NCBI GenBank assembly: GCA_032622095.1
Contig: CP136064.1
Coordinates: 2,294,001 to 2,358,000, forward strand
Origin: Siphonodentalium dalli
Lineage: Eukaryota; Mollusca; Scaphopoda; Gadilida; Siphonodentaliidae
DNA: 64,000 nucleotides
Direction: 5' to 3'
Shown here piece after piece: positions 22,721 to 52,004 of this stretch (position 1 is its first letter; the number at the start of each line of letters is the position of its first letter). The translations under genes and the position numbers were made by a program. The notes under the pieces are model-generated. The model did not search any database and was not told where the DNA came from. It was given only the letters and a program-made list of their open reading frames with translations.

Positions 22721-23654
22721 ACAAATGAAGTTGTGGTGGGGTATACTGGAATCAGCTTGTCCGTCGTCTGTCCATTCATGCGAGTTTTTCCTCAGTCGTT
22801 TATCGATCATTTTCCGTGAAACTTGGCATAGACATCAATCAATCACCATGGGAGCCTGTGCACATGCTATTATGACGTCTGGCAGACTTTTTTTGATGGA
22901 GTTATCCCCCTTTTTCGACTTAGAAATTGTTTTGCAACATGCCTAATTCTGTACGAGCTTTTATTCCTACATTGTTAGGTCAGTGTATTCCTGTCAAAGA
23001 TACATTACACACTGAACTACATGTTATATTCATTTTTATTCACAAAGAGAGGATCTATGAGATCCGTTTAAAATTTATTATTTGGTACGAAATAGCTTAA
23101 GTACCTTTTTGAATCATTATTATGACATAGCAAGTCACAGGTCACATGTCCACTAGCTGTATATAAGGCAGTGGACATCCACAGGTAAGTTCTCTTTTCA
23201 TCTTTGTGATTCAAGATCGAGGGAAGTAACGCTATGAGAAAATGAACCACACATTATTGTCGTGTTCATTTTTTAGTTTAACCTAATCCGTTCCAAGTTT
23301 TTACTTGTTGTGTGACTTCGTTTCAATTTGGGAAACGACACATAAGAATTTATTTGTCTTACGTAAAATAAAATTAAAAATCTCTTTGTTCGGTTGAGAA
23401 TTGTGGGAAATTTCCCAACTTCCGGTAACGACGCATGTGGTTTACAATTCCGAATTGAATTCGTCTTTTCCGGTTCGCGTGTCGAACTCTCTTCTGGAAC
23501 AATGTTTACACAGCTAGTCCACTTGCTATGTTATCTCTGTTCATTTGGTTTTATAATGTAAGTATTATTTCGAACCTTCGATCAGTGAGCCAACATTGGA
23601 TTTGTAACTTGTCACTCACAAATATGTTTCATGTTGACAAATGTAGCGAATGCG

Positions 23655-23810
23655 TAGGGAGCAAATTACCTGGCATCGCATCGCAAATTGCTACCCATAA
23701 TTGTATGGATTATAGCTATGTAATTTGTCATGACTTTGCTATGAGTTTAGCACAATGATATCTAATTAACTTCTTTGCTAATCCAAATTTCAATAGTAAT
23801 TTGCTCCCTG
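23655..23810 (-). mobile_element. AGGGAGCAAATTAC MITE, copy in element B
   Basis: Ends TAGGGAGCAAATTAC and GTAATTTGCTCCCTG form terminal inverted repeats; length 156 bp. Internal GGATTAGCAAAG matches the copy at 32459-32616. Target duplication is not evident, so it may be old. Confidence 0.65.
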
Positions 23811-24689
23811 CAAACACTAGTGGAGTGTATCGTTATCTGTATCGTTTCATTGGTCGGTTATCTGGATTTGTATCATGTCGTGACCGAGTGTGTCGCCGCT
23901 GCCCTAATGGCTGCACAGCATGATTCTGCTTCTCGTCCGATTTTAAGCTGCTCTGGGTTAAGGGGAAACGGTCTGCACATTAATCATACCTCGATGCCTC
24001 TTTCGAGGCTTTACCCAGCCCTGTTTATTCAGTTTTTACTATACAGAAAAAAACCCATTGGTTGGGTATGATGATCTGACATTTAGTTACAATTCTAATT
24101 AACAGGGCTGATTGCCATCCGACGAGAATTACGTTTCTCACTTGGGATTTCGGAAAACGCTTGCTGCTACATGTATTTCTTGTGTCTGGTCTGTATGGAA
24201 AAAATAAATAGAGACAATTACAGGGCATCGAGGGAAATCAGACGCAGTTTCTCTCCTCCGGTATGTGTCCTGGGGGGATTCGAGGGGGAACTGAGCGTTG
24301 GGCCATCAGACAGCGTGCCGTCTCATACCGGGTTTTCTCGGGTGCTGTACATAACAGTTAACATAGCGCAGTTATCGGCCTGGGCAGAGACTTTTAACAG
24401 ACACTCAATTTGTTGTGTAAACCATGGAGTTACCAGGGCTCAAACTTATTACCTTTCAATTGTCCCTGATTGGCATTGTACTTTGTTTATGGGCAACCAA
24501 TCGATTCTTCTGAATGTAAATTCTCCTCTTTACACAGATCATCTTTCACCCTTACTAAAGGTTCCGTGTGCGGAATCCTTCCAACAAATTTGCGAAGGTC
24601 AATCTGGTTTTCTACAGCGATCAGCTGCTTTTCCGCAAACCAAGCTGGGAATCACATTTCTAATTGCGTAGAGCATTCATTCTTTCAAC

Positions 24690-25015
24690 CCAGTTTATTA
24701 ACTCAGACCCGAGGACATTGTTTCAATTTACAAAAAACACCATTCATCGAAGGATGTCGGGAAGTATTTCTTCACCAATCGCGTGCCAGAAATGTGGAAT
24801 AAACTTCCAGAATCTATTGTGATCGCAGAGACGCTGGAACAATTCAAACCTCTAATCGACTATCACTTTTACAGCGAAAAAATTCACGTATGACGAGTAG
24901 CTGCATGCACGTCCATGTGACGAACACAAATAATTTTTCAAGTTCTTGTATCAGCATTAGCGGAACTAAAGGTCGGATAACCTGTTCCGAGATTAAATGA
25001 TTTGATTAACATTTG
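24690..25015 (+). pseudogene. LINE ORF2 C-terminal remnant
   Basis: Frame 24741-24893 reads KYFFTNRVPEMWNKLPESIV, then LEQFKPLIDYHF, ending at TGA. The F-x-N-R-V-x-x-x-W-N-x-L-P block is the common C-terminal signature of non-LTR retrotransposon ORF2 proteins. The preceding part (TRGHCFNLQKTPF) is in another frame, so there is a frameshift near 24750. The stretch to about 25015 is probably LINE 3' UTR. Only the tail is present; the RT domain is absent. It lies inside DIRS-like element B. Confidence 0.7.
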
Positions 25016-27544
25016 GCTCTCCAGCAGGGCTCAAAATATTTTTAATTTTGCGAGAATCAAATGCTGAATCAAGTCAGTCATAAAGCACTGAAAATTGAAA
25101 TGTTTTGTGAGAATCATTACGAGAATTGATTCTGTGATTCTTGTCGAATCTTAGGGCCTGCTCCAGCCTTAGAAAATTCCCAATGATTGTTCACCTGTAG
25201 TACCAGGCTTAGATCTATTCTCTGATGATATCGTGGCTTTTATAGTTGGGTTAGCTTATCGGGTTCAGATATAGACAATTGAACTCATGCAATCTTCTGA
25301 GGTGGCTGGTAAGAAATAAATAACCTGTTCCATGGGAACAGGCGTATTTCAGAATGTTGAGCCTGCGTCATGCCAAATGATGCCCTGAATGATTGAGTCC
25401 TTCGCCGCCGGGTTGTTTAGGGCATTGCTGTACTCAGTGTTCCTTTTTGACACGCTGTCTTGAATAACTCAAACAGGCAGGCAATCCTTCTAACGGCACA
25501 CATGAGGCAATCACCGTTGGTGACAGATGAGTCTCTGCCCACGGGGAGGAACTAGGGTCCGGGTCCTCGCTGTATGAGCGGCAGACAACCGTCAGACCAT
25601 ACCCACATGTGACTGGTCTTCCATAACATGACTACTCTCGACCAACTGTCGGAACAAGAATATGCCTTCACCTTAGTGGCTACGGTGGGCTGGAAACACG
25701 AACAGCTCATGGACCCGGGCCCTTCATCTGTTAAGAACAATCAGTGAATAACAAGAAGACACTTTCTTGTTGTTTTTAGACCTTCATCCTCCACAGCCTG
25801 TTCATCCTTTCCGACCGTTTGAAGTTGTTCCATCTCGATGGGCTTCCTCCTTCCAAACATTTTCTAATATATTACATACAGGCCTCCAAGTGTCCCTTTC
25901 CATCAAGGTAACTGAATACACTCGATTGGATCGACAGGCTGTGGAGGCAGTTACAACTCGGGACTCTCCGGACTTTTTTCTTCTCGATTGTTTCGATACG
26001 AGAGAACATTTTAGGAATTTCAAAATCCTATCACGCTCGTGTTGAACTTCGTTTACCAGGGGTTTTTCCAACCAGTTTCATGGCTCATTGTCCGATGGAA
26101 ATGGCTTATGTCCGGTGTATTTCTTACTCGAAGTAAAGTGTTTGCACTTTTGAAACCAATAACATGGGTTTTCCTGGGTTGCAATTGGACGCTCACTACA
26201 CTGTGAAGCCTCATATTAATACATCGATTGGACATTTAACTACTGTCATTTTGAAGTCAGTTACAAAATAATTATTTTGAGCCTTGACCGGTTGTTAACA
26301 AAATTGGGTTTGCACCTTTACTGACAGTATGTCGCAAAACTCACAATCATGGTTATGCGGCTATTGAGATCTAGGTTTTCTTCGCCAGAAATGAGGTTTG
26401 GTATGTTTCTAATTGTATTTACATTCACCTCTTCCTCATTTTACATCCAGATTGACTATTCAGGTAGCAATAGATTTCCTTCCTCTGGTGTCGAAACGTC
26501 GGGATATCTTGGTTCGTTCAGTCACAAGCATCGATCAGAGTGGTCTATGCTTTCTGCATATGAACAGCTTGCTCCATGGAGGAGACGGCACCTGCATGTA
26601 CATGCATATGACCTTTGGTCGATTTCTACCTAATGAGTTTTCAAAATTATTGGTTTGCCTGACTTCAGGAATAAAAGGGGGGTGGGGGGCTACGATTCAG
26701 CCATTGGGCTCATTCATCTACTTTCTCCACTTTACCGTGTATCATCAATCAAATCTGCGAATCAGTACCTTTTGGATCCATTTATTGCTACTCAGCAGGT
26801 TCAAAAGAATTGCTCTTAACCAAAATACAATAGTATCTCATTCCTCGCAGCCTCCTCCTATGAGTTGATTCTAACATGTAGTTCAGTGTGTAACATATCT
26901 TTGACGGGAATATAACATTTTCAATAGAAAATACATATTCCCTAATAAGATACTTACACACTGAACTCACATGTCCCTCCCAAATTGGGATTTCCCCTCC
27001 CCGCTGCTCGGTCACACCTCTCGAATCTTGTAAGAGGATGAAAAGAGAACTTACCTGTGGATGTCCACTGCCTTATATACAGCTAGTGGACACGTGACCT
27101 GAGACTTGCTACGTCATAATAATGATTCAAAAAGGTACTTAAGCTATTTCGTACCAAAATAATAAATTTTAAACTGATCTCATAGATCCTCTCTTTGTGA
27201 ATAAAAATGAATATAACATGTAGTTCAGTGTGTAAGTATCTTATTAGGGAATATGTATTTTCTATTGAAACTGTTATTTTTGATACTGGGCACATATATT
27301 TAGTACCACGGGAATCAGTGCACCTGCGATTATGACATTTGTACAACTTTTTTTGTGTGGAATTATTCCCCTTTTTCAACATGCATAATTTTGTCCGAGT
27401 TTTTATTCCTACATTTTTCGGTCAATAGGTTTTAGGATTAGTGTTAGAGGTTAGGGTTGTGCACCTGCAATGGGAATCTGTTATTTTATTATTTTAACTA
27501 AATCTTTACTGACAAGTGAAACATCTTTGTGTTTTAAAAACACC

Positions 27545-27565
27545 GGGGGGGGGGGGGGGGGGGGG
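27545..27565 (+). repeat. G21 homopolymer
   Basis: Uninterrupted G run followed by TGGGG. Could form quadruplex structures; length is likely polymorphic or uncertain. Confidence 0.9.
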
Positions 27566-27605
27566 TGGGGTATCCTTAGTCCCATTGGGACAGTCACACT
27601 CTAGT

Positions 27606-27930
27606 TATTTTTTTAAATATATAATTTTTATATCTCCTTACAAAGGGTGTATAACATTTATCAGCTTGGAACCTTCGATATGCATAGTAACAAGTAATTG
27701 TTTCTAGTTTACAGATATTACCACCCACCCCCCTGGGTACCACATTAAAACATGAGCAGGACCGAAAAGAAAATTTAAATAAAACAAGGATTATATAACT
27801 CTAGAATGGAAGGCTCGTTTGAAAGCAGTCATGATGGCAAACATCCATACCAAATTTCATTCAGATCCTACAAATTGTCTGCATTTTTAAACTCCCTTAC
27901 AGCTTTGTTGCAGAGTATAAATAATTTTTA
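27606..27930. other. Unassigned spacer between two core-repeat elements
   Basis: No gene. Contains a CCACCCACCCCCCTGGG block and an AAATTTCATTCAGATC motif like those in core-repeat units. Confidence 0.5.
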
Positions 27931-28360
27931 TACGCCCTTCTGAAAAAAGGTTGTATTATGTTATCAGTCTGTCTGTCCGTCCGTTAACATTTTTGGTTTC
28001 CGATCGATAACTCCAGTTTGGATTATTTGATCTGAACCAAAGTTGGTATGTGTATTTCCCAGCTAAAGATACAGGCCATGTTCAAATATGGGTTCCGTCC
28101 ATTTATTTTTACATGAGTTACGGCCCTTTTTCAACTTAGAATTTGACCATCTGTTAAAATTTTTGATTTCCGACTGATAACTCCAGTTTGGATCATTTGA
28201 TCTGAACCAAAGCTGGTATGTGTATTTCCCAGCTACTGATACAGGCCAAGTTCAAATATGGAGTCCGGTCAATTATTTTTACATGAGTTACGGCCCTTTT
28301 TCGACTTAGAATTTGACCAATTTCATAACATTTCGGTTTCCGACCGATAACTCCAGTTTT

Positions 28361-29812
28361 TAGTCGAGTTTTTTTCCAAAACTCGACTTATAGTTTGATG
28401 AGGGGCGACGGATGGGCGGGCGGCGTGTTTTGCTTATAACTCAACCGTTTATTGACGGATTAAAATTTCTTTTGGTGTGTGAGTACATATCCATGCACAT
28501 AAGCTGCAGACAAAAAATCGGGTTCGTCCGCACATTTATTACAGAGTTATGGCCCTTTGCCATTTTTCACTGATTTTAGGCTCGTTAGCACAACAACTTC
28601 AACAAACGTTATCTGATTCGATTGAAATTTGGCATATAGGTGTCTCCCAAGAATATCTCGGACGAGTTCGAAAACCGGCCTGGTCCGATAAAATTTGATA
28701 GAGTTATGGCCCTTAATTAGTCATTTTTCACGAATTTTCAGTTCGTTAGCGCGATAACTTCAACAAACGTTATCCGATTTGATTGAAATTTGGTATATAG
28801 GTGTCTCCCAAGAATATCTCGGACGAGTTTGAAAACCGGCAGGTCCGATAAAATTCGATAGAGTTATGGCCCTTAATTAGTCATTTTTCACGAATTTTCA
28901 GCTCGTTAGCGCGATAACTTCAACAAACGTTATCCGATTTGATTGAAATTTGGTATATAGGTGTCTCCCAAGAATATCTCGGTCAAGTTCGAAAACCGGC
29001 CAGGTCCGATAAAATTTGATAGAGTTATGGCCCTTAATTAGTCATTTTTCACGAATTTTCAGCGCGATAACTTCAACAAACGTTATCCGATATGATTGAA
29101 ATTTGGTATATATATAGGTGTCTCCCAAGAATATCTTGGTCGAGTTCGAAAACCGGCCAGGTCCGATAAAATTCGATAGAGTTATGGCCCTTAATTAGTC
29201 ATTTTTCACGAATTTTCAGTTCGTTAGCGCGATAACTTCAACAAACGTTATCCGATTTGATTGAAATTTGGTATATAGGTGTCTCCCAAGAATATCTCGG
29301 ACGAGTTCGAAAACCGGCGAGGTCCGATAAAATTCGATAGAGTTATGGCCCTTAATTAGTCATTTTTCACGAATTTTCAGCTCGTTAGCGCGATAACTTC
29401 AACAAACGTTATCCGATTTGATTGAAATTTGGTATATAGGTGTCTCCCAAGAATATCTCGGTCGAGTTCGAAAACCGGCCAGGTCCGATAAAATTTGATA
29501 GAGTTATGGCCCTTAATTAGTAATTTTTTCACAAATTTTCAGCTCGTGAGCGCGATAACTTCAACAAACGTCCTCCGATTTGTTTAAAATTTGGAATAGA
29601 CATACTTGCCAAGAATATTTCGGACGAGTTCGAAAACCAGCCTGGCCCGATAAAATTTGATAGAGTTATGGCCCTTAATTAGTCATTTTCGATTTTACCT
29701 ATTAATTAGTCTACCGATACTGATGCACACCAATTGGCGGTAGCCACTGGCGGTAGCCATCGGCGGTAAGCCACCGAAAACGAGACACAGCATCTCTGAT
29801 GCCACCTCTTGT
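28361..29812 (+). mobile_element. Nested core-repeat element (GTCGAGTTTTTTT head)
   Basis: Palindromic head with GTCGAG and CTCGAC ends (28363-28388), a purine-rich GGGGCGACGGATGGGCGGGCGG tract split as GGGGCGACGG plus ATGGGCGGGCGG, then seven units of about 155-160 bp with AACTTCAACAAACGTTATCC, GAAATTTGGTATATAGG, TCCCAAGAATATCTCGG and GAGTTATGGCCCTTAATTAG. It ends ATGCCACCTCTTGT. Units are very alike, suggesting recent amplification. Confidence 0.75.
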
Positions 29813-32450
29813 GATTACTTGATCTGAATCAAAGCTGGTATGTGTATTTCCCAGCTAAAACTACAGGCCAAGTTCGAATATAGGTTCTGTCTAATTATTT
29901 TTACATGAGTTGTTTTACACGGCCATTTTTCCGCCAAGGAAAGCCCTCAACTGAACTATGGATTACGTCTCCGGTCTTGTCTTGTGTCAATCAGGAGGGT
30001 TAAAATTTTATTGCTGTGCCGACCCCACTCACACCCGTGTTCAGATTAGTCGCGCATGAATACACTCGCATTCTATCTATTTTCTAGTCAGTTTTTAATT
30101 CCTCCTCGCCAGGACAGGATCGTTTCTATTTCTCAAGGTTGTATCTTTCTGTGTTGCGAGTTTATCAACTCAATATTTATTGTTGATATTACAAACTTGC
30201 AATTTATTGTACCCGATAGTTAATTAATATTTCTCACATCCGAAACGGGAACTTTTTCGTTTCATTGTATCCGTAATTTGTTTCCGGCTTTATCTTCAAA
30301 CAATTGGAATTAAGATTGCCATCTTGACAATGACTAAAGAAGCACATAGCTTACTTGTGACGAAACCACATATTGCATTTTGTGCCACATATACGGCGTG
30401 ATGACTATCATGAGTTACAATTGAGGACGCAATGTAGTACGGTATGCGATATCTCCTAATTTTGTGCTACACGTGTTCACTTTACATAAGTTTCCGTCGA
30501 CTCGCTTCGGTTATTTAGTAAGTTCCGTTGCTTTGTATCAGAACGTATACTGCCAAATCATACATGGAACTGCTCTGTTAATTCGCAGAAAGTTGCACAG
30601 GACAGCAATATCCTCCTTTGTAATAATTTACATGAATAAATACGAAAGATAGTCCTTGTTATCAGATGACAATTCACATTTCTTTCGACTGAGCGATCTG
30701 TAACTTTGTTTTAACGATCAATACCTGCGAATCTACGCCCGCCAGTATGTATGAACGTGTGGTCTTGTATCAGACACACGGCAAATACAATAAAACATTA
30801 CAGCGACTTCGTTATCACATATATAACCACACTTCAAATCTAAATATCGTGTTGCATTCTTTACATTCATGTATGTACAGTTTGGGTTACTACGAAATAT
30901 CGATCACCGACTGCAATGAAGTGAAAACGTTGTAACCTGACACTCCAGCTACACTTGGCTCACTTTACTTAAACAATGGTGATTCTACCCATGGTAAGAA
31001 CATTTTGGAGCCATCTTGGATGTTGGCCTTGAAGCGAGACCACTGGCATACTTGTGGAGAGTAACCATCCCCAATGGGAACTTGGCAAATACGGGAAAGC
31101 TTTGTCTTCAATATGGAACACCTCGTTCATCAGGGCATGGTCAGGGTGTTGCAATGATTTATTGGGTTGCCAGCGTCGCACTGAATTTTAATTAGATCGT
31201 TGTTTCTCCTTCTTATCATCCGCCAGATGATTTAAGATTTACGCCGCACATGGGTTGGCAATTAGAATTGTCAATCTTTGTGATATAACGACTGTGATCA
31301 GAAGATGTCACCAACTTGAAACATCTGACATCTTATCCTCAGACATTAGTGTTTGTCGATACATTCAATTTTTCGGTCCCATTGACATATTATGGTTTAA
31401 GTGCCTCAATGCCATCTTACTGTAGGACCTAATATTCCTCGGCATTGGCGAGCTTGCAATATGTATTGCACGCCGTAATAGTTCCATACATTGTACATGA
31501 CAATCATATGGTATCAGGGCCTCATGTATGCTGTCAGAACTGACTATGCTTACATATGGTGAACAGTTTTCATCCCAATACTGACATACTTTGCGGTTTC
31601 ATCAGTGAATAATAACGGCAAACAGCGAAATAGAAAGAATAAATATTGTCACATGCTCCAGATTCACTGCCAATAGTCTTTCCAATAGAGCCCATCACTT
31701 GGCTCATTAACTTCTATTTCCACATATATCGAAACGATAATCTGCCAAATATCTTTCACTCATGTATGACGCGCAGTTACATGCATCACATTTATATTGC
31801 GCAGAATATCAGAAAGGACTGCATTTGTATTGTTACATGTCTAAAGCGAGATTACATGCGCAGCGTTTATATTGCGCACATCTACTGCCAATATATTTCC
31901 GAAGAGGCCAAGACATGGCTCTTCGTCTATTGTCACATATCCAATGATTATCTGGCAAAACGATTCGATACAATCATAACGAAAATGAAGGCATTTGTAT
32001 CGTCGCGTCCGCTGTCAGCGCACTTTCCTAACGGAAACCGCCTAGTTCTTGCCCATGTGCATTCGGAACTCATCGTCCTCATATACGAGAAAAGACAGTA
32101 TCTTACCTGTCATAGCAGGTAAGATCACGTGGCCAGGGGTATAACGTGATTTTATATTAACCTTACTTTCTACTCTAAAACCTACAGATTGTATTGTATT
32201 ATGTATATTAACCTTGCTTTGTTAAAACTAACAGCATGTCTTGCAGTCGAAAGTGATTCAAATTTGATGGCCACACACCGTGCGTGTTGCTCATTCACGG
32301 GTGTATTACTTGTTATAGTTGGGTGAGGGCATATTAGTCAATGATTACCTACCAGTCTTTACCTCGGGCAGGACCAGTTCTGTGGCATGATATAATGAAA
32401 CATCATACCTTGCTATGATATCTGCAGCATATCATTTTTATATCTGGTTT

Positions 32451-32624
32451 GTGTATCACAGGGAGCAAATTACTTTCGAAATTTTGATTAGCAAATAATC
32501 TCACATTGACATGATTAGATAGCATTTTTATAACATCATATAAAAATTCCTCGCTATTACCTGTATCCACATTTCAGTAGCAAATCGCGATGCGATTCAA
32601 GTTAATTTGCTCCCTGGTGTATCA
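32451..32624 (+). mobile_element. AGGGAGCAAATTAC MITE with 8-bp target duplication
   Basis: Element 32459-32616 (158 bp) has ends CAGGGAGCAAATTAC and TTAATTTGCTCCCTG, flanked by GTGTATCA at 32451-32458 and 32617-32624. Eight-base duplications and CAGGG-type ends fit the hAT superfamily. Inserted in DIRS-like element A. Confidence 0.88.
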
Positions 32625-32838
32625 TAAGCATTCTGATATCTTATGGCATACCCAATGGCTGCATGTGACATCAGTTCATAATGTGAACTGTCGAGAGAGC
32701 GAAGCAGATGACAAAGAGAATAGGATGAAGCGACGGAAGAAGTGAAGGAAAAGAAGTCTCTTCAAAAGTTATACTTGCTCGGTTGTCTTGCTAGCATGAA
32801 TTATATGGCACTACCTGGGATGGTTCTTCCAAAAACAA

Positions 32839-32855
32839 GGGGGGGGGGGGGGGGG
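32839..32855 (+). repeat. G17 homopolymer
   Basis: Uninterrupted G run inside DIRS-like element A. Confidence 0.9.
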
Positions 32856-33012
32856 CGGTACACATTTGAGCAATGTTGGAATCTGAATTGGGAGCTCTTT
32901 CAAGTAACTTTTTCATGACTAAATCACATTTACATGAAACTTGTTTCGGAAGAGTACATTCCCATCGAATTTGGATATTAATTGCTCGTGCCTCCTCCTG
33001 GGCTTGCATTCT

Positions 33013-33110
33013 AATCCATATAGTTCAGTTGAGGGCTTTCCTTGGCGGAAAAATAATTTTTTTTAAATTAAAATTACTTGTTCCTTAAGGGAAGCCCGAA
33101 ACTGAACTAT
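33013..33110. repeat. Internal complementary region of element A
   Basis: Left half is the reverse complement of the left outer end of the element; right half is the reverse complement of the right outer end. Located about 80 bp before the right ITR, the position expected for a DIRS ICR. Confidence 0.65.
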
Positions 33111-33756
33111 CATAGATCCCTCCCATGGTGGTGCCATTCCCAACCCCGCGACTCGCAAATCTCATGATTAAGTCGGAAATAAAAAACTGACTAGAAAATA
33201 GATAGAATGCGGGTGTATTCATGCACGACTAATCTGAACACGGGTGTGAGTGGGGTCGGCACAGCAATAAAATTTTAACCCTCTTGATTGACACAAGGCC
33301 GGAGACGTAATCCATATCGTTCAGTTTCGGGCTTCCCTTAAGGAAAAAGTAATTTTAATTTTAAAAATTATATTTTTCGACTTAGAATTTGACTGCATTT
33401 TGGCATTGAAATTAGGGGTATATCAGATTTTCTTCAAATGTAAGCTCAAAGTATTTTTTTATTTTGCGGTAGTACAATTCGAAATGGCTAAAGGGTGTAT
33501 TTTGCCACGCCCTAGCGGTGCTCTTGTTTAGAACAGTGATTGCATCTTAAAAACATTGTTTATTGAAAGTCATTAATTATCCTATGCAACTTACAGAACC
33601 AGATGGTGAAATATAAATGCAGTTGTTAATATGAAAATGGAGCGAACAGAAGTGATGGAATCACTCTCCAGGAAGATCCTGATGGAAGGTACCAGTATAC
33701 TTGAAGTACTATGTTTCTCACATAAATAGCCCCTAAATACAGTCTCATATCTTTAG

Positions 33757-34485
33757 TAAGGCCTGTTTTATACGTCGCGCCAAACACGGGTCTGGCTCGT
33801 GTTACATTTGTTTGATTTATACGTCGAGCCAGCTGGCACGTGCTGTAATCGTATATTTCGAACAATTTTAGCATTTCTGATTCAAAATTCCATCTGCTAT
33901 AATCATTTCCGTCATAGTGTCATCTGACAATGCACTATAACCTGGCCCTCGTTGTGTCTTTATTTACACTTCTATACAGTTGGTTTCAAAATCAGGATCT
34001 TGTGATTCATTTCCCTCAAACCTTCAAATATATTTCTCTGCAATATATTTATTCCCAAATTTCGCGAAACGTCCTTTGTCAGTCGATACATGCATGTCCC
34101 TGTAGTACCGTACAATGATCCAGAGTTAGCACATCTGTGGCCCGACGCTGTTTTATACGACGTGCCAGACACGGGTCGCGCTGGGATGACTCGAGAGATA
34201 ACATAATGACGTGAAAAACTTCAAATTGCGCATGCTCTCCGCCAAAGGGGTCCTAAGTGAGGAATGGTTTTCTATGAATCATCTTAGCACGACCCGTGTT
34301 TAGCACGTTGTATAAAACAGCGTCGAGCCCCAGACGTGTAGCACGTCTGTTCGTGCCAGAGAAATTCTGACGAGCCAGTTGGTTTTATACGTCATGCTCC
34401 AGTCGCGCTATCTTGGACTTTGTCATTTTCATACTAATTAGGCTGACGCGACCCGTTTCTGGCTCGACGTATAAAACGGGCCTAA
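33757..34485. mobile_element. Harbinger-like TIR element with nested related element
   Basis: Element 33760-34482 (723 bp) has ends GGCCTGTTTTATACGTCG and, on the other strand, GGCCCGTTTTATACGTCG, with TAA on both sides (33757-33759, 34483-34485). A three-base TWA duplication fits PIF/Harbinger. Inside, 34143-34325 is a second inverted-repeat unit with CGACGCTGTTTTATACGACG type arms sharing the TGTTTTATACG core. No transposase. Confidence 0.75.
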
Positions 34486-37721: not shown

Positions 37722-37725
37722 ATTA

Positions 37726-38905: not shown

Positions 38906-38929
38906 ATGGAAAGCCACAGCTGCATTATG

Positions 38930-39309: not shown

Positions 39310-39315
39310 GCTCAT

Positions 39316-39500: not shown

Positions 39501-39507
39501 TTATAAG

Positions 39508-39983: not shown

Positions 39984-41905
39984 GGGGCATACGAGATTGT
40001 TATGACCTTGTAAAATCTGTCTTCTCTATATAGCGACGACAATTTTTGCGGGGTAATATCACTTTTACACGGGGCATACGAGATTGTTATGACCCGTGTA
40101 AAATCTGTCTTCTCTATATAGCGACGACAATTTTTGCGGGGTAATATCACTTTTACACGGGGCATACGAGATTGTTATGACCCGTGTAAAATCTGTCTTC
40201 TCTATATAGCGACGACAATTTTTGCGGGGTAATATCAGTTTTACACGGGGCATACGAGATTGTTATGACCCGTGTAAAATCTGTCTTCTCTATACAGTGA
40301 CGACAATTTTTGCGGGGTAATATCAGTTTTACACGGGGCATACGAGATTGTTATGACCCGTGTAAAATCTGTCTTCTCTATATAGCGACGACAATTTTTG
40401 CGGGGTAATATCATTTTTACACGGGGCATACGTGATTCTTATGACCCGTGTAAAATCTGTCTTCTCTATATAGCGACGACAATTTTTGCGGGGTAATATC
40501 AGTTTTACACGGGGCATACGAGATTGTTATGACCCGTGTAAAATCTGTCTTCTCTATATAGCGACGACAATTTTTGCGGGGTAATATCAGTTTTACACGG
40601 GGCATACGAGATTGTTATGACCCGTGTAAAATCTGTCTTCTCTATATAGCGACGACAATTTTTGCGGGGTAATATCAGTTTTACACGGGGCATACGAGAT
40701 TGTTATGACCCGTGTAAAATCTGTCTTCTCTATATAGCGACGACAATTTTTGCGGGGTAATATCAGTTTTACACGGGGCATACGAGATTGTTATGACCCG
40801 TGTCAAATCTGTCTTCTCTATATAGCGACGACAATTTTTGTGGGGTAATATCAGTTTTACACGGGGCATACGAGATTGTTATGACCCGTGTAAAATCTGT
40901 CTTCTCTATATAGCGACGACAATTTTTGCGGGGTAATATCAGTTTTACACGGGGCATACGAGATTGTTATGACCCGTGTCAAATCTGTCTTCTCTATATA
41001 GCGACGACAATTTTTGCGGGGTAATATCACTTTTACACGGGGCATACGAGATTGTTATGACCCGTGTAAAATCTGTCTTCTCTATATAGCGACGATAATT
41101 TTTGCAGGGTAATATCAGTTTTACACGGGGCATACGAGATTGTTATGTCCCGTGTAAAATCTGTCTTCTCTATATAGCGACGACAATTTTTGCGGGGTAA
41201 TATCAGTTTTACACGGGGCATACGAGATTGTTATGTCCCGTGTAAAATCTGTCTTCTCTATATAGCGACGACAATTTTTGCCGGGTAATATCAGTTTTAC
41301 AAGGGGCATACGAGATTGTTATGACCCGTGTAAAATCTGTCTTCTCTATATAGCGACGACAATTTTTGCGGGGTAATATCAGTTTTATACGGGGCATACG
41401 AGATTGTTATGACCCGTGTAAAATCTGTCTTCTCTATATAGCGACGATAATTTTTGCAGGGTAATATCATTTTTACACGGGGCATACGAGATTGTTATGA
41501 CCCGTGTAAAATCTGTCTTCTCTATATAGCGACGACAATTTTTGCGGGGTAATATAAGTTTTACACGGGGCATACAAGATTGTTATGACCTTGTAAAATC
41601 TGTCTTCTCTATATAGCGACGACAATTTTTGCGGGGTAATATCACTTTTACACGGGGCATACGAGATTGTTATGACCCGGGTAAAATCTGTCTTCTCTAT
41701 ATAGCGACGACAATTTTTGCGGGGTAATATCACTTTTACACGGGGCATACGAGATTGTTATGACCCGTGTAAAATCTGTCTTCTCTATATAGCGACGACA
41801 ATTTTTGCGGGGTAATATCAGTTTTACACGGGGCATACGAGATTGTTATGACCCGTGTAAAATCTGTCTTCTCTATATAGCGACGACAATTTTTGCGGGG
41901 TAATA
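39984..41905. repeat. 88-bp satellite array, 22 units
   Basis: About 22 head-to-tail units of 88 bp (a few 87), nearly identical. Each contains TTTTACACGGG and CCCGTGTAAAA as inverted arms around ATACGAGATTGTTATG, plus CTCTATATAGCGACGAC. Because 88 is not a multiple of three, every unit opens a 62-codon minus-strand frame that stops two units later; these are not genes. Flanked by GATACGGTGTGGTATGCCCC (39527) and GATACGGCGTGGTATGGCCC (41956), and by ATTTATCCCC / GGGGATAAAT. Confidence 0.95.
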
Positions 41906-42085
41906 CGAAATAAGTGTTTCCTGTTTAGTTAACATATATCGAACAAGAACACCGGGATACGGCGTGGTATGGCCCTAGAAGAACAATGGTGCCTAAGAAG
42001 GCTTACAATTCTACAGAGGGGATAAATGTTGTTAGTTCATCATTATTCACGGCTCGTGATGTTCCATTAAACATGTATAATATAA

Positions 42086-42545: not shown

Positions 42546-42599
42546 GATGCCCCAAATGAAGCCACTTTTTCGGAGGACACTGGTCGGACGGCCTTTTAT

Positions 42600-43099
42600 T
42601 ATATATTGTCAAGAGCAATGAGCTGCATATATTCTCTTGTGAGTGTATCATTATAAAGAACAGGACATCGCGAGTTGCATATATATATCTTCCTCATATT
42701 TCTGACTGTCCTCCGAAAAAATTGTTGGGGGTCTATATAATGATGAATTAACTGCATATATTGACAAATTGTTTACACATATTGGCAAGAGCAATGCACT
42801 GCTGATATTGGCGAAGTAACAGCATATATTGACGAAGTAACCTCATGTATTGAGCAAGTCTTCTCGGTCCACAACAGTTGGGATATCGGTTGAGTTGATG
42901 CTGTTTGGGACAGAGTCCCGTCCCGTTACTAGACTATAACAGACTTTCATTTAAGAGACGTACTACATTTACATGTGGAGCCCCTGAATGTGATTAATCA
43001 TCTAACATGTCCGCGATTAATCTGTCTTCAAAATGCTATATAATTTACCGTGATACAAAAAGATAAAGTGATGATACAATCGTTTAATATACTGTTATT
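42600..43099 (+). other. Minisatellite fragments and unassigned DNA
   Basis: 42740-42860 holds plus-strand fragments of the TTGAC..GCATATA minisatellite. 42861-43099 is unassigned. Confidence 0.5.
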
Positions 43100-45406
43100 A
43101 GCTCAACTTTACTTTGTAAAGTTTGAGCTATTGCCATGGCTTGGTATCCGTCGTCCGTGTGTGTGTGCGTGTGTGCGTGATGCGTCAACAATTTCCTTTA
43201 GCACGGGCTACAGTTCGTACCTTTGGTCCGATTATTATGAAATTTGTCATGGATGTTGACATTGACATGTAGATGGGAACGAGTCATTTTGGGGTCATTC
43301 GGAAAAAAAACATGGCTGCCAGTGGCCATCTTGGATTTCAAAATTCAATCCATTAGCACGGGCTACAGGCCGTACCGTTTGTCTTATTGTCATGAAATTT
43401 GTCATGGATGTTAATATTGACATGTAGATGGGAACGAGTAATTTTGGGATCATTTGGCCAAAAAACATGGCCGTCGGCAGCCATCTTAGATTTTACTCTT
43501 TGCATGACTAAATCCTTTAGCACGGGCTTCAGGTTGTACCTTTGGTCAGATCATCATAAAATTTGTCATGGATGTTAACAATGACATGTAGATGGGAACG
43601 AGTCATTTTGGGGTCATTCGGCCAAAAAACATGGCCGCCAGCAGCCATCTTGGATTTTACTCTTTGTATGACTAAATCCTTTAGCACGGGCTACAGTTCG
43701 TACCTTTAGTCTGATCATCATGAAATTTGTCATGGATGTTAACAATGGCATGTAGATGGGAACGAGTCATTTTGGGGTCATTCCGACAAAAAACATGGCC
43801 GCCAGCAGCCATCTTTGGTTTCAAAATTTAATTCATTAGCACGGGCCACAGGTCGTACTGTTCGTCTGATCATCATGAAATTTGTCATGGATGTTAATAT
43901 TGACATGCAGATGGGAACGAGTGATTTTGGGGTCATTCGGCCAAAAAACATGGCCGGCAGCAGCCATCTTGGATTTTACTCTTTGTATGACTAAATTCTT
44001 TAGCACGGGCTACAGGTCATACCTTTAGTCTGATCATCATAAAATTTGTCAGAATGTTAACAATGACATGTAAATGGGAAACGAGTTATTTTGGGGTCAT
44101 TCGGCCGAAAAACATGGCCACCAGCAGCCATCTTGAATTTTACTCTTTGTATCACTAAATTCTTTAGCACGGGCTACAGGTCGTACCTTTAGTCTGATCA
44201 TCATAAAAATTTTCATGAATGTTAACAATGATATGTAGATGGGAACGAGTCATTTTAGGGTCATTTGGCCGAAAAACATGGCCGCCAGCAGCCATCTTGG
44301 ATTTTACTCTTTGTATGACTAAATCCTTTAGCACGGGCTACAGTTCGTACCTTTAGTCTGATAATTATAAAATTTGTCATGGATGTTAAAAATGGCATGT
44401 AGATGGGAACGAGTTATTTTGGGGTCATTCCGACAAAAAACATGGCCGCCAGCAGCCATCTTTGATTTCAAAATTCAATCCATTAGCACAGGCTGCAGGT
44501 CATACTGTTAGTCTGATCATCATGAAATTTGTCATGGATGTTAATATTGACATGTAGATGAGAACGAGTGATTTTGGGGTCGTTCGGCCAAAAAACATAG
44601 CCACCAGCAGCCATCTTGGATTTTACTCTTTGCATGACTAAATCCTTTCCCGCTGGCTACAGGTCGTAGCTTTGATCAGAACTTCATGAAATTTGTCATG
44701 GATGTTAACAATGACATGTAGATGGGAACGAGTCATTTTGTGGTTGTTCAGCCAAAAAACATGGCCACCAGCAGCCATCTTGGATTTTACTCTTTGCATG
44801 ACTAAATCCTTTGGTGGGGCTGCAGGTCATACCTTTAGTAGGATCTTCATGAAATTTGTCATGGCTGTTGACATTGACATGTAGATGGGAACGAGTCATT
44901 TTGGGGTCATTCGACCAAAAAACATGGCCACTGGTGGCCCATCTTGCATTTCAAAATTAAATCCATTGGCGCGGGCGGGCTACATGTAGTACTATTCGTC
45001 TGATAATCATGAAATTTGTCATGGATGTTAATATTGACATGTAGATCGGAACGAGTCATTTTGGTGTCGTTCGGCCAAAAATCATGGCCGCCAGCAATCA
45101 TCTTGGATTTTACTCTTTGCATGACTAAATCCTTTGGTGCAGGCTACAGGTTGTAGCTTTGGTCGGATCTTCATAAAATTTGTCATGGATGTTAATAATG
45201 ACATGTAGATGGGAACGAGTTCTTATGGGGTCATTCGGCCAAAAATCATGGCCACCAGCAGCCATCTTGGATTTGACTCTTTGCATAACTAAATCCTTTG
45301 GCACAGGTAAGACATTTCAATCAGCATCTTTACTATTTCTCCATTTACTGTAAACCATTAAATTATTCCCCTACCTAAGTTGAGCTACAGTGTCATTGAC
45401 ACTTTC
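43100..45406 (+). mobile_element. Satellite-bearing composite element, copy 2
   Basis: Same plan as 6415-10635: palindromic head at 43100-43129, CCGTCGTCCGTGTGTG tract, 13 units of about 161 bp, and the terminal AAGTTGAGCTACAG plus AGTGTCATTGACACT ending at 45406. Complete and uninterrupted, so it is the better reference copy. Confidence 0.8.
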
Positions 45407-45484
45407 ATATATTATATATTTTATGATAGCGCGACAAATCAAAATTCTCCGGAAAACAAGGCTTTGTTCAGCGGACCTCTGGTA

Positions 45485-47004
45485 TGTTTGATATTATTGA
45501 TTAACTAACCGCATATACATGTATTGATAAATTAGCTGCATATAGTGGCAAAGTAGCTGCATATATTGATAAATGACCACATATATTGACAAAGAAGCTG
45601 CATATATTGACTAACTAACCAAATTTAATGGACGATGTAGCTGCATAAATTTACTAATTAACCACATATATTTATAACATGCATAGCTGCATATATTGAC
45701 AAATTAGATGAATATATTGACAAATTAGCTGCATATAATCGCAAATGAGCTACATATATTGACTAACTAACCACATATGTTGACAAATGAGCTACATATA
45801 TTGACTAACTAACCACATATGTTGACAAATGAGCTACATATATTGACTAACTAACCACAACTATTGACAAATTAGCTGCATATATTGACTAACTAACCAC
45901 AAACATTGATAAAGTAGCTGCATATATTGTCAACGCAATTTCGTATTTTGACAAAGTAGATGTATATATTGACCATCAAACCACATATATTGACTAAGTA
46001 GCTGCACATAATGACTAACTAACCACATATATTGACTAAGTAGATGTATATATTGACCAACTAACCGCATATATTGACTAAGTAGATGTATATATTGACC
46101 AACTAACCGCATATATTGACTAAGTAACTGCATTTAATGACTAACTAACAGGGGGCCTCAGTGGCTCAATCGGTTAGGGGTACAACTCCAAGCCGTTTCA
46201 CCTTCCAGCGCTGGTGATAAGGGTTCAAATCCACATGTTTCCATCGTGGACTTTGTAACTCAAAATCATTATCTGGGAAAGTTGCCAGTTACTTGCCGAT
46301 GGCCGGTGGTTTGCCGCACATGGTCGACGAGTTTATCAGCCATTGAAATCACTGTTAGATTAGCCGTAAGTGTGCGGATTTCCTCCACCATTAAAACTGG
46401 CAATGTCGTGATATGGCCTTAGTGGCTAAAGCGACATAAAACCCCAATCAATCAATCAATCATTTAATGACTAACTAACCACATATATTTATAACGTATC
46501 TGCATATAATTAAATAGCTGCATATATTGACAAATTAGATGAATATATTGACAAATTTAGCTGCATATAATGGCAAATGAGCTACATATATTGACTAACT
46601 AACCACATATATTGACAAATTATCTGCATATATTGACTAACCACAAATTGACAAATTAGCTGCATATATTGACTAACTAACCACATATATTAACTAAGTA
46701 GCTGCATATAATGACTAACTAACCGCATATATTGACTAAGTAGCTGCATATAATGACTAACTAACCGCATATATTGACTAAGTAGCAGCATATAATGACT
46801 AACTAACCACATATATTAACTAAGTAGCTGCATATAATGACTAACTAACCACATATATTAACTAAGTAGCTGCATATAATGACTAACTAACCACATATAT
46901 TGACTAAGTAGCAGCATATAATGACTAACTAACCACATATATTGATATAAAGTAGCTGCACATAATGACTAACTTACCATATATATTGATAACGTAGTTG
47001 CATA
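45485..47004 (+). repeat. 21-23 bp minisatellite array
   Basis: Alternating units of the types TTGACTAACTAACCACATAT and TTGACAAATTAGCTGCATAT, giving dimers of about 44 bp. Interrupted by the SINE at 46150-46460. Confidence 0.9.
46131..46479 (+). mobile_element. tRNA-derived SINE, copy 2, with 19-bp target duplication
   Basis: The SINE body 46150-46460 is nearly identical to the copy at 12066-12378, with A-box TGGCTCAATCGG, B-box GGTTCAAATCC and CAAT tail. It is flanked by CATTTAATGACTAACTAAC at 46131-46149 and 46461-46479. The CATTTAATGA variant is distinctive within the array, supporting a real target duplication. Confidence 0.92.
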
Positions 47005-49429
47005 TATTGCATATCTCCGTCAAAGGTATCTTGCCCACTGAACTATATGGTATATTATCCCAAGTAGGAGGGGTTAACTCTCCGAGTTGAAAAAAAAACG
47101 TACGAAAATTCTATGGTACATATCTTCTGTCATGTTCATGACCCGTGTAATCACGTGGTTTCTGACCCGTATTGAGAGAACAGCCATATTTTTTCTCCTC
47201 CTAGTCGAGGACGGGTGCTAAAAGAAAATCTCTCACAAAGAATACGAAGCTAAGTTGCAGTTTGTATAGCAAAAACAGTTTTGTTTTTGTTTTACACAAA
47301 CAACATTATTTCTTTGCTTATAGTTGAAAATTATGTAACGATTCACATAAAGATTACGACGGTTTGTTCCGAATATAATAATTTCGGAATCGGATGACTT
47401 GTTTCGTTTTACCGACTTTGTCTTCCATAATTTTAATCGGTCAATGATTTAATATCCGTTTCTGTGCAGAATGCAACGTTTCCAGCCTATTAAAGGCAGA
47501 ACATTCGCGGCACCATTGGATATGACTAAAGACGCTGGTCGTTTTCTTTATACAAAATCTATGGCATACAGGTGACGTGTTATTTAAGTTACCACGTGCG
47601 TTGACGGTGGTTAAAGGTATCACGAAATTAGGTGACTTCTTTTCGAGTTCATTTTTTCGTTTGACGGCTTTCTTTATACGTTAACAATCATCGTCTGGTG
47701 TACAACTGACGGATACAGCAGTGTTTAAATAGGCTGATAGGATTGTAAAATCCCGAATGTCACTTTGAACATTTTTCACCCTGGATGATTAACAATGTGG
47801 CCGTTACTGCCTTGGTTGCCACATGGTAACATAACACAACAGGTGTATTTGTGATGGTTCGCACTCACATTCATTACTTTCACAGGACTGCTAATCAAGG
47901 TAAGACCAGGTTCATGAATCGCCTTCCCCGTAGCTCCCCTTGCAGTCGCTTCCCTCGTTTCGAGGTCCCAAGAGTTGAGAACGAAAGTCGATATATAGGG
48001 TTCCTCTAATTGGCGTAATTAGCACTCGGAGCGATAGTCACACCACATAGGACGCGGGTTGGTGCTACCTATAAAACCCGTAGCTCCCACGAGTTGCTTC
48101 CCCTAGAACCCGGACAAACTCGCGGGGAAGGATCCAGGGATTTTTTGTTTGGGAACACCTGTTCTGTATTTGAGTATGTGCCCATATAAATTTGGATGTT
48201 AAAATATTCAGTACTGGATACTTGATTGTGCAAATAAAGGCTCCATATTATAGACTATATATCATCTGCGGGCTGCTGATTTGCATTACGAGGACATTTT
48301 GTTGAATTGTAGAAAAACTCCTTGACAATATGGAAGATCCAACTGGAATAAATACTATCTACATGGAATTTGGGGACATTTGGGTCTCTATAGTTTGGGC
48401 ACCCAAACTTTTAACAGGTATCAAAACATCCCTGTATCCTTCTCTGACTTGCCGATATATCGTGTTCCTCTAATGGCGTAATTAGGACTTGGGGCGATAG
48501 TCACACCAAACAGGCGCGGGTTGGGAATCCCCATTGAACCCATGAGACACCCTGGTGCGCACCTGGACTATCGAATGGGACGTCAATCTGCTTCTGCGGG
48601 TCGTCCGTTGGCTGTTGGCGTGCCCCGGACGACGGTGACCACTGAGCTCTACTAACACACTCGACACACGCCGTCCATCGCTACAAGTCGTCATCTCGGG
48701 GTCAGCGCGGCTGGGGGATACACCCTCGGTGATCCTTGACCATGCTCTCCGGTGCCTTATGATCATGGTGTGTGGGGATTTGGGCTAAAATTACTGGTCG
48801 AATGGCCATTTTACTATTGTCTCACTTCAAATTAAGAGAATTTTTTTTTTTCTCAAATTGTTACATTTACGCGATTATTTGGCGCCTGAAAGTTTATCCT
48901 CCTTGCCATCTGTCCCAGCTGGGCTTGGAATGGGTTCACAGTTCACAGACTTGTTTCCTCCTTATTATAAGTCCCCACTTCTGGGGGCTTGGCTGACAGG
49001 TTACTGGCCGCATTCTGGCCAACAGCTGCCAGTAACTTCAGGTTTGATTTTAAATGAAAACAAAAGATCTTATTCCCTGACGCCATTATAGCAGGAAGCT
49101 TGCTTGGGAATTGGTACCTACTAACCTCCCATCGCCAGTTCGGTCGGTTGGATATCGGGATTGGTCCTGCTGCTGCTCCACCCCGAGATGTACAGGCTCT
49201 GGACATTCCTCCGGGGTCCCCAATGACCAGACCTCACATGCATTTAGAAATGCAGCTTGTCGTGGTGTATTGTGCTGTTAACACTCCATCGACAGATGGA
49301 GATCAGGATCAGATAGAGCAGTCGCTCCAGCACGAGGTGAAAGGGCTTTCGACATTCCTTTCGGGTCACCTTTACATGCGCTTACGAGGGAGCTCAGTTA
49401 GTTGTTCAGGGTTCTTTGATGCAGCCAAG

Positions 49430-49520
49430 CGCAGGAAGAAAATTAATGTCGAATTTTGTTTAGCAAATAACCTCAGATTGACATGATTTGATAGCATTGT
49501 TCTACAATCATTTACAATTT
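49430..49520 (+). repeat. Fragment of the AGGGAGCAAATTAC MITE in element C
   Basis: CAGGAAGAAAATTAATG followed by TTTAGCAAATAACCTCAG and TTGACATGATTTGATAGC matches the first part of the MITE at 32459-32616. The 3' end is absent. Confidence 0.55.
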
Positions 49521-49884
49521 CACAGAACATCAGAGTGCTTTCCCTTGTTTCGAGGGTCCCAAGGAAGCGATAGAAACCTTTACGACCAGTACACTGTCAC
49601 TTGTCGATGTATAGTGTTCCTTCATTGGCGTAATTAGCACTCGGGATGATAGTCCCACCAAAACAGGTCGCGGGTTGGGGCTACCCATCAAACCCATTGG
49701 CCGCATTTGGTGGGCTTTCTGGACTATTGACAGGGACTCCAAGTCGGTTACTACGGGCCGGCTGTTGGCTTACCCTGGGACAGTCAAATGAGAAAATAGG
49801 ATACAAGTTGCAGGGCTTTTGTTAGCATTTGGGTAGCAACTTGCCCTGTGTTGCCGGCCAGTTTGTACCCTGCTTAACGTCGTC

Positions 49885-49965
49885 AGAGATGGGTGGTTAT
49901 ACCATCGGCCTGCACACTTGGTGACCTGGGTTCGACCATCCTCAGAGGTATTCCACCATTTTACT
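49885..49965 (+). repeat. Possible tRNA-like SINE head
   Basis: GGGTGGTTATACCATCGG, CTTGGTGACCTGGGTTCGAC resembles the A-box to B-box portion of a tRNA-derived SINE. No tail or target duplication seen. Confidence 0.3.
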
Positions 49966-51638
49966 GTTCTCGGGTTGGGTTGTGTTCAACTTCTTGCTTT
50001 ATAAGTGGTTGCTTCTTTCCATGTTCCATCCAGCTCTTTCATGATCACGGGCTTTGCTGGAGAATGTCTGTAGTCATTCATATCACTAGATTAGTATATG
50101 ACTCTCGCCTTTTCATTTTCCTGACTTTTTTAAGATTTGTTCTGGACTGGGTCGGGTGCTCGAGAGGGTAAATATTTACATCTCGATTTGGGACGCAAGA
50201 ATTAGAGATAAACAAGCATACATGCTTTCTCTCCGACCGCGCTGTGTTTCCGTAATAGATACGAATGACATATATTTTGTCTTCAGGTTGCTTACAGTGC
50301 TAACTCAACATGGATTTCACTTTTGTTGTCCAGTCATACATCTATGAGTCCATTATCCATGGTTTGACATATGCTCATTTTCAGACCACTGTTGACATGA
50401 GGTCTCGTTCAGCACACCACTCGGTCCTTTGCTGCCCTCAGCGATTGCCAATGCAGGATAATGTTGCACCGGTGGGGCAGCATATGAATCGTGTTGGGCA
50501 CAATTCATAAAGTTTCATTACATACCTGCCATTGGTTTCTGCTGGGTTTGGGCTTGTGCCACAATCCTGATGCCTCGTTCGTCCAATTTTTGTTTTTATG
50601 GATTTCCACCTTAACGATGTTGGAATTTCGATTCCTGGCTGCCTTTCTGTCATGGATTCAGTAGCCTGTGATTGGTCAGTTGGGTTTCACTGTGTGGGTG
50701 GGCATTTCCATATTTGGGAACGTCATCAGGGAAACAATGTCATGACTTATTACATCTTAGTCGGTCATATCTCGAACTTCAGGCTTCAAACTAAGTTTTC
50801 TGCTGTGAAACTCCAATTCTGAGCCCTGTTCTTCATCCGGCCTGAGCCTTGCAACATATGTCTGTGTAATATCCATTCCCTTCCTGGTCAGGCTATTGGT
50901 CAATGATACCTCCTCCTTATCGACAATGGCGTGTCTCCAAGCAGTTGGTGTCTGGCCCTTTCTTGGGAGCTTGCAGCTGGTTTTTCATCGTGCTCTCATT
51001 GGGTACTGGGACACGGCCCAACCCACTCCATATTTGGGTCGGGGGTGGGTTCTATTGTTTTTAAGGGGGGTCTTCGTTATTACTTGCAGCTTTTAGCTGC
51101 TGCCTGGGTTAGCCTGTTAGGTGCGGTATTAGTATTTAGCCATACCTGGGTTTATAATACCAGGCTGGGGATTTATTGTCAACAGGTCTTTTTCTATTTC
51201 CATTTCCTTGGAACATGGAGGCTTCTCCCCTTTCGGGGAGGGGGGGGGGGTGTGTTACCCGTACCTTTCCCGGTAAGTACTCGGCTGATACATTATTCCC
51301 TAAGTTCCGATGGGAATGTCGTTTCCGACTATCCGTCTCCAGGTCTTCTGAAGCTATTTACTTTACTTGCAGGGGTCTTAAACTCTTAAGTGGCCACTTT
51401 TTGTTCGTTTGTGAGTGCTGACCGGTATTAGTTTAGGATGGAATGTAACATTGGCTTATGGTCCTATTGTGCATGTGTGTATATATATATATATATGTAT
51501 ATACATATATCTCTATATGTCTGTGCATGTGTATGTATATATTGTAGGTTCTCAGGTCAATCCAGTTCTTTGATTCAGATGCATAGCAGTGTTTTTGTTT
51601 CCTCGTGGCCTCCACCTGTTAGAAAATTCTATGTTTTA

Positions 51639-51735
51639 CCATATAGTTCAGTGGGCAAGATACCTTTGACGGAGATACAATATTTTCCTTAAAAAGTAAA
51701 ATATATATCTCCTAGAGGTATCTTGCCCACTGAAC
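51639..51735. repeat. Internal complementary region of element C
   Basis: Fused reverse complements of the two outer ends of element C, about 50 bp before the right ITR; see the entry for the whole element. Confidence 0.7.
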
Positions 51736-52004
51736 GCTGAGCTCCCTCCCAGGGTTTCGCACCCACCCCGCTCACGAGGAATGTCCTACTGGGGATAAAA
51801 AATATGGCTGTTCTCTCAATACGGGTCAGAAACCACGTGATTACACGGGTCATGAACATGACAGAAGATATGTACCATAGAATTTTCGTACGTTTTTTTT
51901 CAACTCGGAGAGTTAACCCCTCCTACTTGGGATAATATACCATATAGTTCAGTGGGCAAGATACCTCTAGGAGATATATATTTTACTTTTTAAGGAAAAT
52001 ATTG

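Follow-up and report, generated by a model that had tools for sequence, protein, structure and literature searches.

How does a mobile element move when it carries the end structures of a retrotransposon and no detectable gene? This question is raised by a 64,000-nucleotide stretch of the genome of the scaphopod mollusc Siphonodentalium dalli (contig CP136064.1, positions 2,294,001 to 2,358,000; hereafter the window), which contains three insertions, A, B and C, with the architecture of DIRS retroelements, a rare type of mobile element. A preliminary description, made from the letters alone, had taken them for a population of non-autonomous DIRS derivatives, a view now supported by their layout, the lack of a target duplication, their membership in genome-wide families and the failure to detect coding remnants in the segments scanned. 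We conclude that A, B and C are very probably copies of non-coding, non-autonomous DIRS1-like families, most likely moved by a reverse transcriptase (RT) and a recombinase supplied in trans.

Anatomy of the three elements

All three elements follow one order: a tip, an inverted terminal repeat (ITR), the interior, a junction block, the opposite ITR and a different tip. The junction block lies 5' of the right ITR, is 99-109 bp long and consists of two reverse complements in a row, that of the left tip and then that of the right tip. These two internal complementary regions (ICRs) overlap in their coordinates at a short circle junction, and the ITRs have divergent outer parts whose tips pair with the ICRs; both are traits of DIRS1-like elements. 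In window coordinates, the features are:

29926..33374, plus strand: element A, about 3.45 kb, an internally deleted copy of a probable non-coding DIRS family
29926..30105, plus strand: left terminus of A (tip and left ITR), by alignment
33012..33117, plus strand: internal circle junction of A (left ICR 33012-33054, right ICR 33050-33117)
33118..33125, plus strand: CCCTCCCA motif directly 3' of the right ICR of A
33175..33376, plus strand: right ITR (33175-33334) and right tip/extension (33310-33376) of A, by alignment
22986..27280, plus strand: element B, a probable non-coding DIRS family member
22986..23230, plus strand: left terminus of B (tip and left ITR), by alignment
26866..26974, plus strand: internal circle junction of B (left ICR 26866-26912, right ICR 26909-26974)
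26975..26982, plus strand: CCCTCCCA motif 3' of the right ICR of B
27011..27280, plus strand: right ITR (27011-27242) and right tip (27216-27280) of B, by alignment
47004..52007, plus strand: element C, a full-length copy of a 5.0 kb, probably non-coding DIRS family, inside a 21/42-bp minisatellite
47004..47212, plus strand: left terminus of C (tip and left ITR), by alignment
51637..51735, plus strand: internal circle junction of C (left ICR 51637-51683, right ICR 51675-51735)
51744..51751, plus strand: CCCTCCCA motif 3' of the right ICR of C
51783..52007, plus strand: right ITR (51783-51966) and right tip (51947-52007) of C, by alignment

Each pairing was scored by local alignment against the best of 200 mononucleotide shuffles. 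In A, the left tip (29925-29965) is identical to its ICR at 41 of 43 positions (score 38.5 versus 13.5 for the best shuffle), the right tip to its own at 60/68 (51 versus 17), and the ITRs to each other at 152/167 (135.5 versus 24). The corresponding values in B are 42/47 for the left tip (22986-23032; 37 versus 15.5), 63/66 for the right tip (59 versus 18.5) and 219/236 for the ITRs (197.5 versus 35.5); those in C are 47/49 (left tip 47004-47052; 44.5 versus 16), 61/61 (61 versus 17.5) and 183/189 (173.5 versus 21). The six tip/ICR scores thus amount to 2.4-3.5 times the best shuffle, and the ITR scores exceed theirs by more. The alignments bear out the inverted repeats with non-identical tips and the junction, earlier put at about 98 bp, and every junction matches both tips. 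The earlier coordinates stand in their layout, with two boundaries moved: the matches of several relatives set in at query base 13, which puts the start of B at about 22986 and not 22974, and A ends, by eye, at about 33374 and not 33378. Split direct repeats in the order A1-B1-A2-B2, as in PAT/Ngaro-type elements, are absent from A, B and C, which have inverted repeats and ICRs instead.

Shared ends, different interiors

The three insertions had been described as unrelated-looking, with little sequence in common. This holds for their interiors, which score at shuffle level between A and B (24 versus 24) and between B and C (21 versus 25); the exception is A-C, where a score of 58 comes from a single shared 90-bp repeat. 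It does not hold for their ends: the junction blocks align across elements with scores of 43 for A-B (best shuffle 17), 37 for A-C (15) and 57 for B-C (18), and CCCTCCCA stands directly 3' of the right ICR in all three. The ends of A, B and C therefore form one class, and the interiors differ. Far from being unrelated insertions, the elements are homologous at their ends and belong to families with one common tip and junction class. Exact TAGTTCAGT/ACTGAACTA occurs at nine sites in the window, all nine within A, B or C.

Two kinds of repeat were seen in the interiors. A palindromic module of about 165 bp, GGGAGCAAATTA...TAATTTGCTCCC, lies in A at 32451-32615, inverted in B at about 23643-23805, and as a half in C at 49432-49522. 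A 41-bp repeat occurs three times in C (48011-48051, 48474-48514 and 49626-49666), two of these within a 69-bp repeat. To our eye the 41-bp repeats faintly resemble tRNA A and B boxes; ARAGORN found no tRNA in the window.

Integration without target duplication

How did the elements enter their sites? We joined the flanks of each element without the element itself and aligned them to uninserted paralogues. The joined flanks of A align through the joint in 8 places, six of which were inspected and are 68-73% identical; those of B do so in 3 places at 67-85%, the best being L021; and those of C in 69 places, of which the six inspected all lie in its own minisatellite, with a best identity of 81%. 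Since gaps fall at the joint or close to it, the alignments exclude a long duplication or deletion but would not reveal a change of 1-2 bp. When the 15-bp flanks of 15 A-family insertions are compared, agreement does not exceed 3 bp, apart from L019 (5) and L022 (7), the flanks of L022 being duplicated sequence. There is no target-site duplication at A, B or C, in keeping with DIRS1-like elements and not with terminal inverted repeat (TIR) transposons or miniature inverted-repeat transposable elements (MITEs).

The left ends of the A family read TTTTTCCGCC in 15 of the 17 inspected and GTTTTCC and ATTTTCC in the other two. The left core is hence TTT, or GTT/ATT in two copies, which gives NTT termini; those of B and C were read by eye as ATT. 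Right-end cores are less clear by eye, and L010 reads differently. For comparison, Piednoel 2011 (PMC3266345) gives NTT at the beginning and end of 23 of 28 elements, most of them without a left extension.

Families across the genome

Are A, B and C isolated cases? The genome searched comprises 2.23 Gb in 9 contigs, the window lying in contig 4. With A as query, 40 of 4,909 candidates were scored and yielded 127 matches; with B, 39 of 3,346 yielded 257, and with C, 28 of 3,531 yielded 157. Family junctions were counted for A and C: the A circle junction (21 nt, at most 1 mismatch) matches 785 times and the C circle junction (43 nt, at most 2 mismatches) 519 times, together 1,304, with 0 matches for either reversed control. 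We take the circle junction to occur about once per element. A wider right-end signature, TAGTTCAGT-N50-78-ACTGAAC-N4-18-CCTCCC, matches 2,163 times (reversed control 0). The 17 such matches whose letters were read comprise, by eye, seven of the C type, three of the B type and one of the A type, besides five of a fourth tip type and one of a fifth.

As the preliminary description had proposed, the genome was searched for longer relatives, and it holds them. The A relatives L009-L026 measure 3.5-6.9 kb where both ends were seen, mostly 4.9-5.4 kb, against about 3.45 kb for the window copy. Four pieces present in L009, of about 107, 19, 15 and 1,611 bp, are missing from window copy A, and all four gaps show, by eye, 2-3 bp of microhomology at the joint. 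The piece missing at the first gap is kept in 17 of 18 loci (L019 is uninformative); at the last gap, at least 1.2 kb is kept in 15 of 18, L017 and L018 having deletions of their own and L015 being uninformative. We had considered the 107-bp gap as an intron and dropped this reading because GT-AG boundaries do not fit the missing piece in either orientation and because microhomology occurs at each of the four gaps. C is a full-length copy of 5.0 kb, matched nearly end to end by eleven relatives at 94-96%.

At L013, the right end of an A copy directly abuts the left tip of a fourth-type TAGTTCAGT-class element, from oriented position ~6958 onwards. The arrangement suggests insertion at another element's end; in the 3 kb examined of the fourth-type element, no frame exceeds 97 aa.

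Tips vary with their own junction

In the established model of DIRS1-like elements, the tips pair with the ICRs, and the circle made by the joined tips integrates by recombination at a 3-bp core, with no duplication of the target (Piednoel 2011, PMC3266345). If the tips are templated in this way, they should change together with the junction of their own copy. We followed 19 A copies, the window copy and 18 others, of which 15 were usable (all but L012, L015, L021 and L025). The mean difference between left tip and left ICR is 1.4 edits within a copy and 2.2 between copies, one edit of each mean stemming from how the ICR was cut; for right tip and right ICR it is 1.7 versus 3.5, and for the two ITRs 3.4 versus 5.5. 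The observed sums were reached in 0 of 5,000 permutations, a procedure that leaves the relatedness of the copies in place. Single variants behave alike: a private variant of L019 is present in both tips and both ICR halves, the GAGAAGCCC form of left tip and junction is common to seven copies, and in four copies right tip and junction both take the TAATATTATTTATAAATATTA form. Templating from the ICR would be the simplest reading of this co-variation; gene conversion could also homogenise the sequences.

No coding sequence detected

The preliminary description recognised neither a recombinase nor an RT. We collected 105 stop-free segments of at least 50 aa from A, B and C and scanned 73 of them against Pfam, after a first set of nine that gave no match. 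Among the 73, no RT-RNase H-methyltransferase and no tyrosine recombinase was found; a marginal match to MOZ_SAS (E 0.0035) is the one hit at E 0.01, and no coding remnant was detected in the segments scanned. With two DIRS recombinases from the same genome as queries, tblastn likewise found nothing in the window up to an E of 10, and in the A relatives the sole matches are in L012 (E 3.0) and L021 (E 4.1). Thus, no encoded RT or recombinase was detected, and A, B and C are non-autonomous derivatives that would work like DIRS elements. A 63-aa frame in B (24702-24890), also without a Pfam match, resembles the C-terminal stretch of reverse transcriptases of long interspersed nuclear elements (LINEs), and is possibly a nested LINE scrap.

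Did each copy still code for proteins when it inserted and lose its frames later? Such decay would suit window copy A, with its diverged ITRs (152/167) and the loss of four segments that most relatives keep, and degenerate DIRS elements are common elsewhere: 36 of 75 families in X. tropicalis show some degeneration, according to PMC9210276. We nevertheless consider it improbable. In a comparison of C with L053, one of the 27 other scored candidates, the two are 96.5% identical over 4,969 aligned columns, and 183 of the 198 forward stops of C are stops in L053 too. The shared stops must therefore have been present before the two copies parted, and, on the strength of this alignment, C was most likely non-coding before the split. 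In addition, the stop-free frames of 14 A relatives reach at most 120-209 aa per copy, three frames that were scanned, all from L009, have no Pfam match, and scored recombinases stand beside nearly all junctions of one coding family and not beside those listed for A and C (see below).

Coding DIRS elements of the same genome and the search for a partner

But which elements could supply the enzymes? The genome contains 131 matches to the DIRS-type methyltransferase PF05869 at E up to 0.1, in frames up to 1,321 aa and with 28 above the curated cut-off, as well as 123 matches to a DIRS-type tyrosine recombinase, found by scoring 122 of 967 candidates with a query from the coding tip class (L037). 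At 20 loci we read the sequence 3' of methyltransferase matches. In seven of them (L034, L037, L046, L047, L048, L049 and L051), right ICR and right tip form an inverted repeat, and CCCTCCC is present. L045 has CCCTCCC and the L034 junction without an ICR-type inverted repeat in the 0.8 kb read. The remaining 12 show neither feature and were set aside: L033, L035 and L036, with a tyrosine recombinase and no ICR-type repeat, and L038-L044, L050 and L052, with none in 0.8 kb. These 12 are probably PAT/Ngaro-type elements.

The coding DIRS families (L034 with L047 and L051; L037; L046; L048; L049) are like A, B and C in the order of their right ends, in having the right ICR and right tip as inverted repeats (75-87 bp) and in the CCCTCCC near the right ICR. 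They are unlike them in having a recombinase gene, with frames of 372-400 aa in the L034 family, and in their boundary motif: all seven coding right ends carry another tip class, AATTCAAAATGAAC...CTTCCCAAGG and close variants. Given this different class, the coding elements with right ends read do not appear to have given rise to A, B and C by simple deletion.

Could the three elements instead derive from another class, be it a TIR DNA transposon, a Helitron or a Crypton, with the junction produced when one element inserted into another or an end was inverted? TIR elements, too, can have long inverted repeats and no genes, and recombinase open reading frames (ORFs) without an RT are numerous in this genome. 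Six loci of this kind (L027-L032), found with PF00589, have neither an RT ORF nor an ITR-plus-ICR layout in their inverted-repeat lists. Their tyrosine recombinase ORFs measure 539-659 aa, and in five of the six a palindrome of about 160-195 bp lies downstream. The two that were scanned, L027 and L028, match DUF3504, a Crypton-type domain, so that these loci were rejected as direct DIRS partners. A, B and C do not fit this type, defined by a lone recombinase gene without RT, ITR or ICR: they have ITRs and ICRs, and no recombinase was found in them. The 2,163-fold recurrence of the right-end signature, the missing target-site duplication and the same right-end order in elements with a DIRS-type recombinase also argue against another class, and we regard such an origin as very improbable.

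In the one coding family counted, L034, the circle junction occurs 28 times, and 27 of these 28 have a scored recombinase at most 2.5 kb upstream, versus 0 of 100 listed A junctions and 0 of 100 listed C junctions (from contigs 1-2 and 1-3, respectively). Similarly, no scored recombinase or methyltransferase match lies within 5 kb of 100 listed ends with the wider signature (contig 1). This contrast favours the coding family, since the query came from the coding class and 122 of 967 candidates were scored, so a distant or rare partner may exist. An intact, low-copy autonomous element with TAGTTCAGT tips may therefore have been missed, and we lean slightly towards its existence; it would be compatible with a non-autonomous DIRS1-like origin of A, B and C and would complete it. 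Recombinase families 30-45% identical to L037 were located, many of them intact with frames of about 400 aa, each junction list covers 100 places, and a query of the other tip class ranks distant recombinases low. The lack of a scored recombinase just upstream of any of the 100 shared-signature, 100 A and 100 C junctions listed speaks against such a partner.

A proposed model for mobility in trans

The anatomy, the integration without target duplication, the NTT cores, the spread of the families and the lack of detected coding remnants fit non-autonomous DIRS1-like elements, and the presence of the cis-acting parts without a detected enzyme makes a trans-supplied RT and recombinase likely. In the most likely course, the element would be transcribed and its RNA reverse-transcribed by an enzyme supplied in trans. 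The ICR would then serve as the template on which both tips are completed and joined at the 3-bp NTT overlap into a circle, which the tyrosine recombinase of another element would recombine into an NTT site, leaving no target duplication. As a guess, the CCCTCCCA run beside the ICR, which both tip classes retain, may act on the opposite strand as a purine tract for priming or recognition.

Several observations weigh against this reading. An incomplete search for autonomous elements with tips of the TAGTTCAGT class found none, and the coding right ends read belong to the other tip class. The Pfam set covers 73 of the 105 short segments, and an RT remnant too decayed for Pfam may be present. As to templating, a copy's own ICR is the closest one, ties allowed, in 11 of 15 copies, left and right alike, and its own opposite ITR in 6 of 15, so drift, relatedness or gene conversion must also act. 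In L019, right tip and right ICR differ by 8 further edits over about 53 positions, in window copy A by 5 edits over about 53, and in L024 the left tip departs from the left ICR at the variant and around it. Finally, the element closest in geometry, LgDIRS2, starts and ends with AAT rather than NTT (PMC3266345).

More speculatively, the TAGTTCAGT class could be a long-lived guild of non-coding DIRS shells, in which the junction block of about 100 bp and the ITRs are the conserved replicating unit and the interior of 3-4.5 kb is freely replaced. Such shells would far outnumber the coding DIRS elements and, their own autonomous partner having vanished from the genome, would be moved by enzymes of other tip classes. 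We think this rather unlikely.

Relation to known systems

LARD elements are comparable in that a large non-coding interior, there of long terminal repeat (LTR) type, lies between conserved cis-acting ends; they differ in following an LTR and DDE integrase logic rather than one of ITR, ICR and tyrosine recombinase. Nearer in kind are the mollusc DIRS1-like elements LgDIRS1/2/3 and AcaDIRS1/2, compared here by description and not by alignment. They share with A, B and C the divergent outer ITRs, ICRs overlapping at a 3-bp junction, a right extension, mostly NTT termini, the lack of a target duplication, a size of about 5 kb and a short conserved motif in each ITR and each ICR; unlike A, B and C, they encode gag, RT-RNase H-methyltransferase and a tyrosine recombinase (PMC3266345). 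LgDIRS2 of Lottia gigantea, for instance, has a divergent ITR part of 34 bp, a conserved one of 141 bp and ICRs of 46 and 67 (PMC3266345).

SIRE, the short non-autonomous relative of VIPER in Trypanosoma cruzi, is likewise a non-coding derivative of a tyrosine-recombinase retrotransposon, but at about 0.43 kb it has VIPER ends and split direct repeats, and its mobility is left open there (PMC6681497); A, B and C measure 3.5-5 kb and have DIRS1-type ITRs and ICRs. A phrase search, with Repbase and most subscription literature outside it, found no published account of non-autonomous DIRS1-type elements. SIRE/VIPER is the one precedent found for non-coding tyrosine-recombinase retroelements (PMC6681497), and any claim of novelty is limited accordingly.

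The genome-wide DIRS survey with ReDoSt calls for all three domains, RT, methyltransferase and recombinase, in a span of 10 kb (PMC3266345), so DIRS families without genes would be missed by design. Here, such families account for 1,304 junction matches (A and C) versus 28 for the one coding family counted. This suggests that a scan for ICRs could serve as a cheap, gene-free test for DIRS elements, and that the elements themselves offer natural minimal substrates. Because tips and their own junction change in concert, moreover, sequence alone can put the DIRS templating model to the test.

Other features of the window

The window gave no match to Rfam at gathering scores. Four further inverted repeats (2724-3134, 9423-9919, 34128-34339 and 54964-55205) contain no TAGTTCAGT-class junction; the elements at 2724-3134, 9423-9919 and 54964-55205 are probably TIR-type MITEs. 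An 88-bp satellite spans 39984-41905 in about 22 copies with 97% matches.

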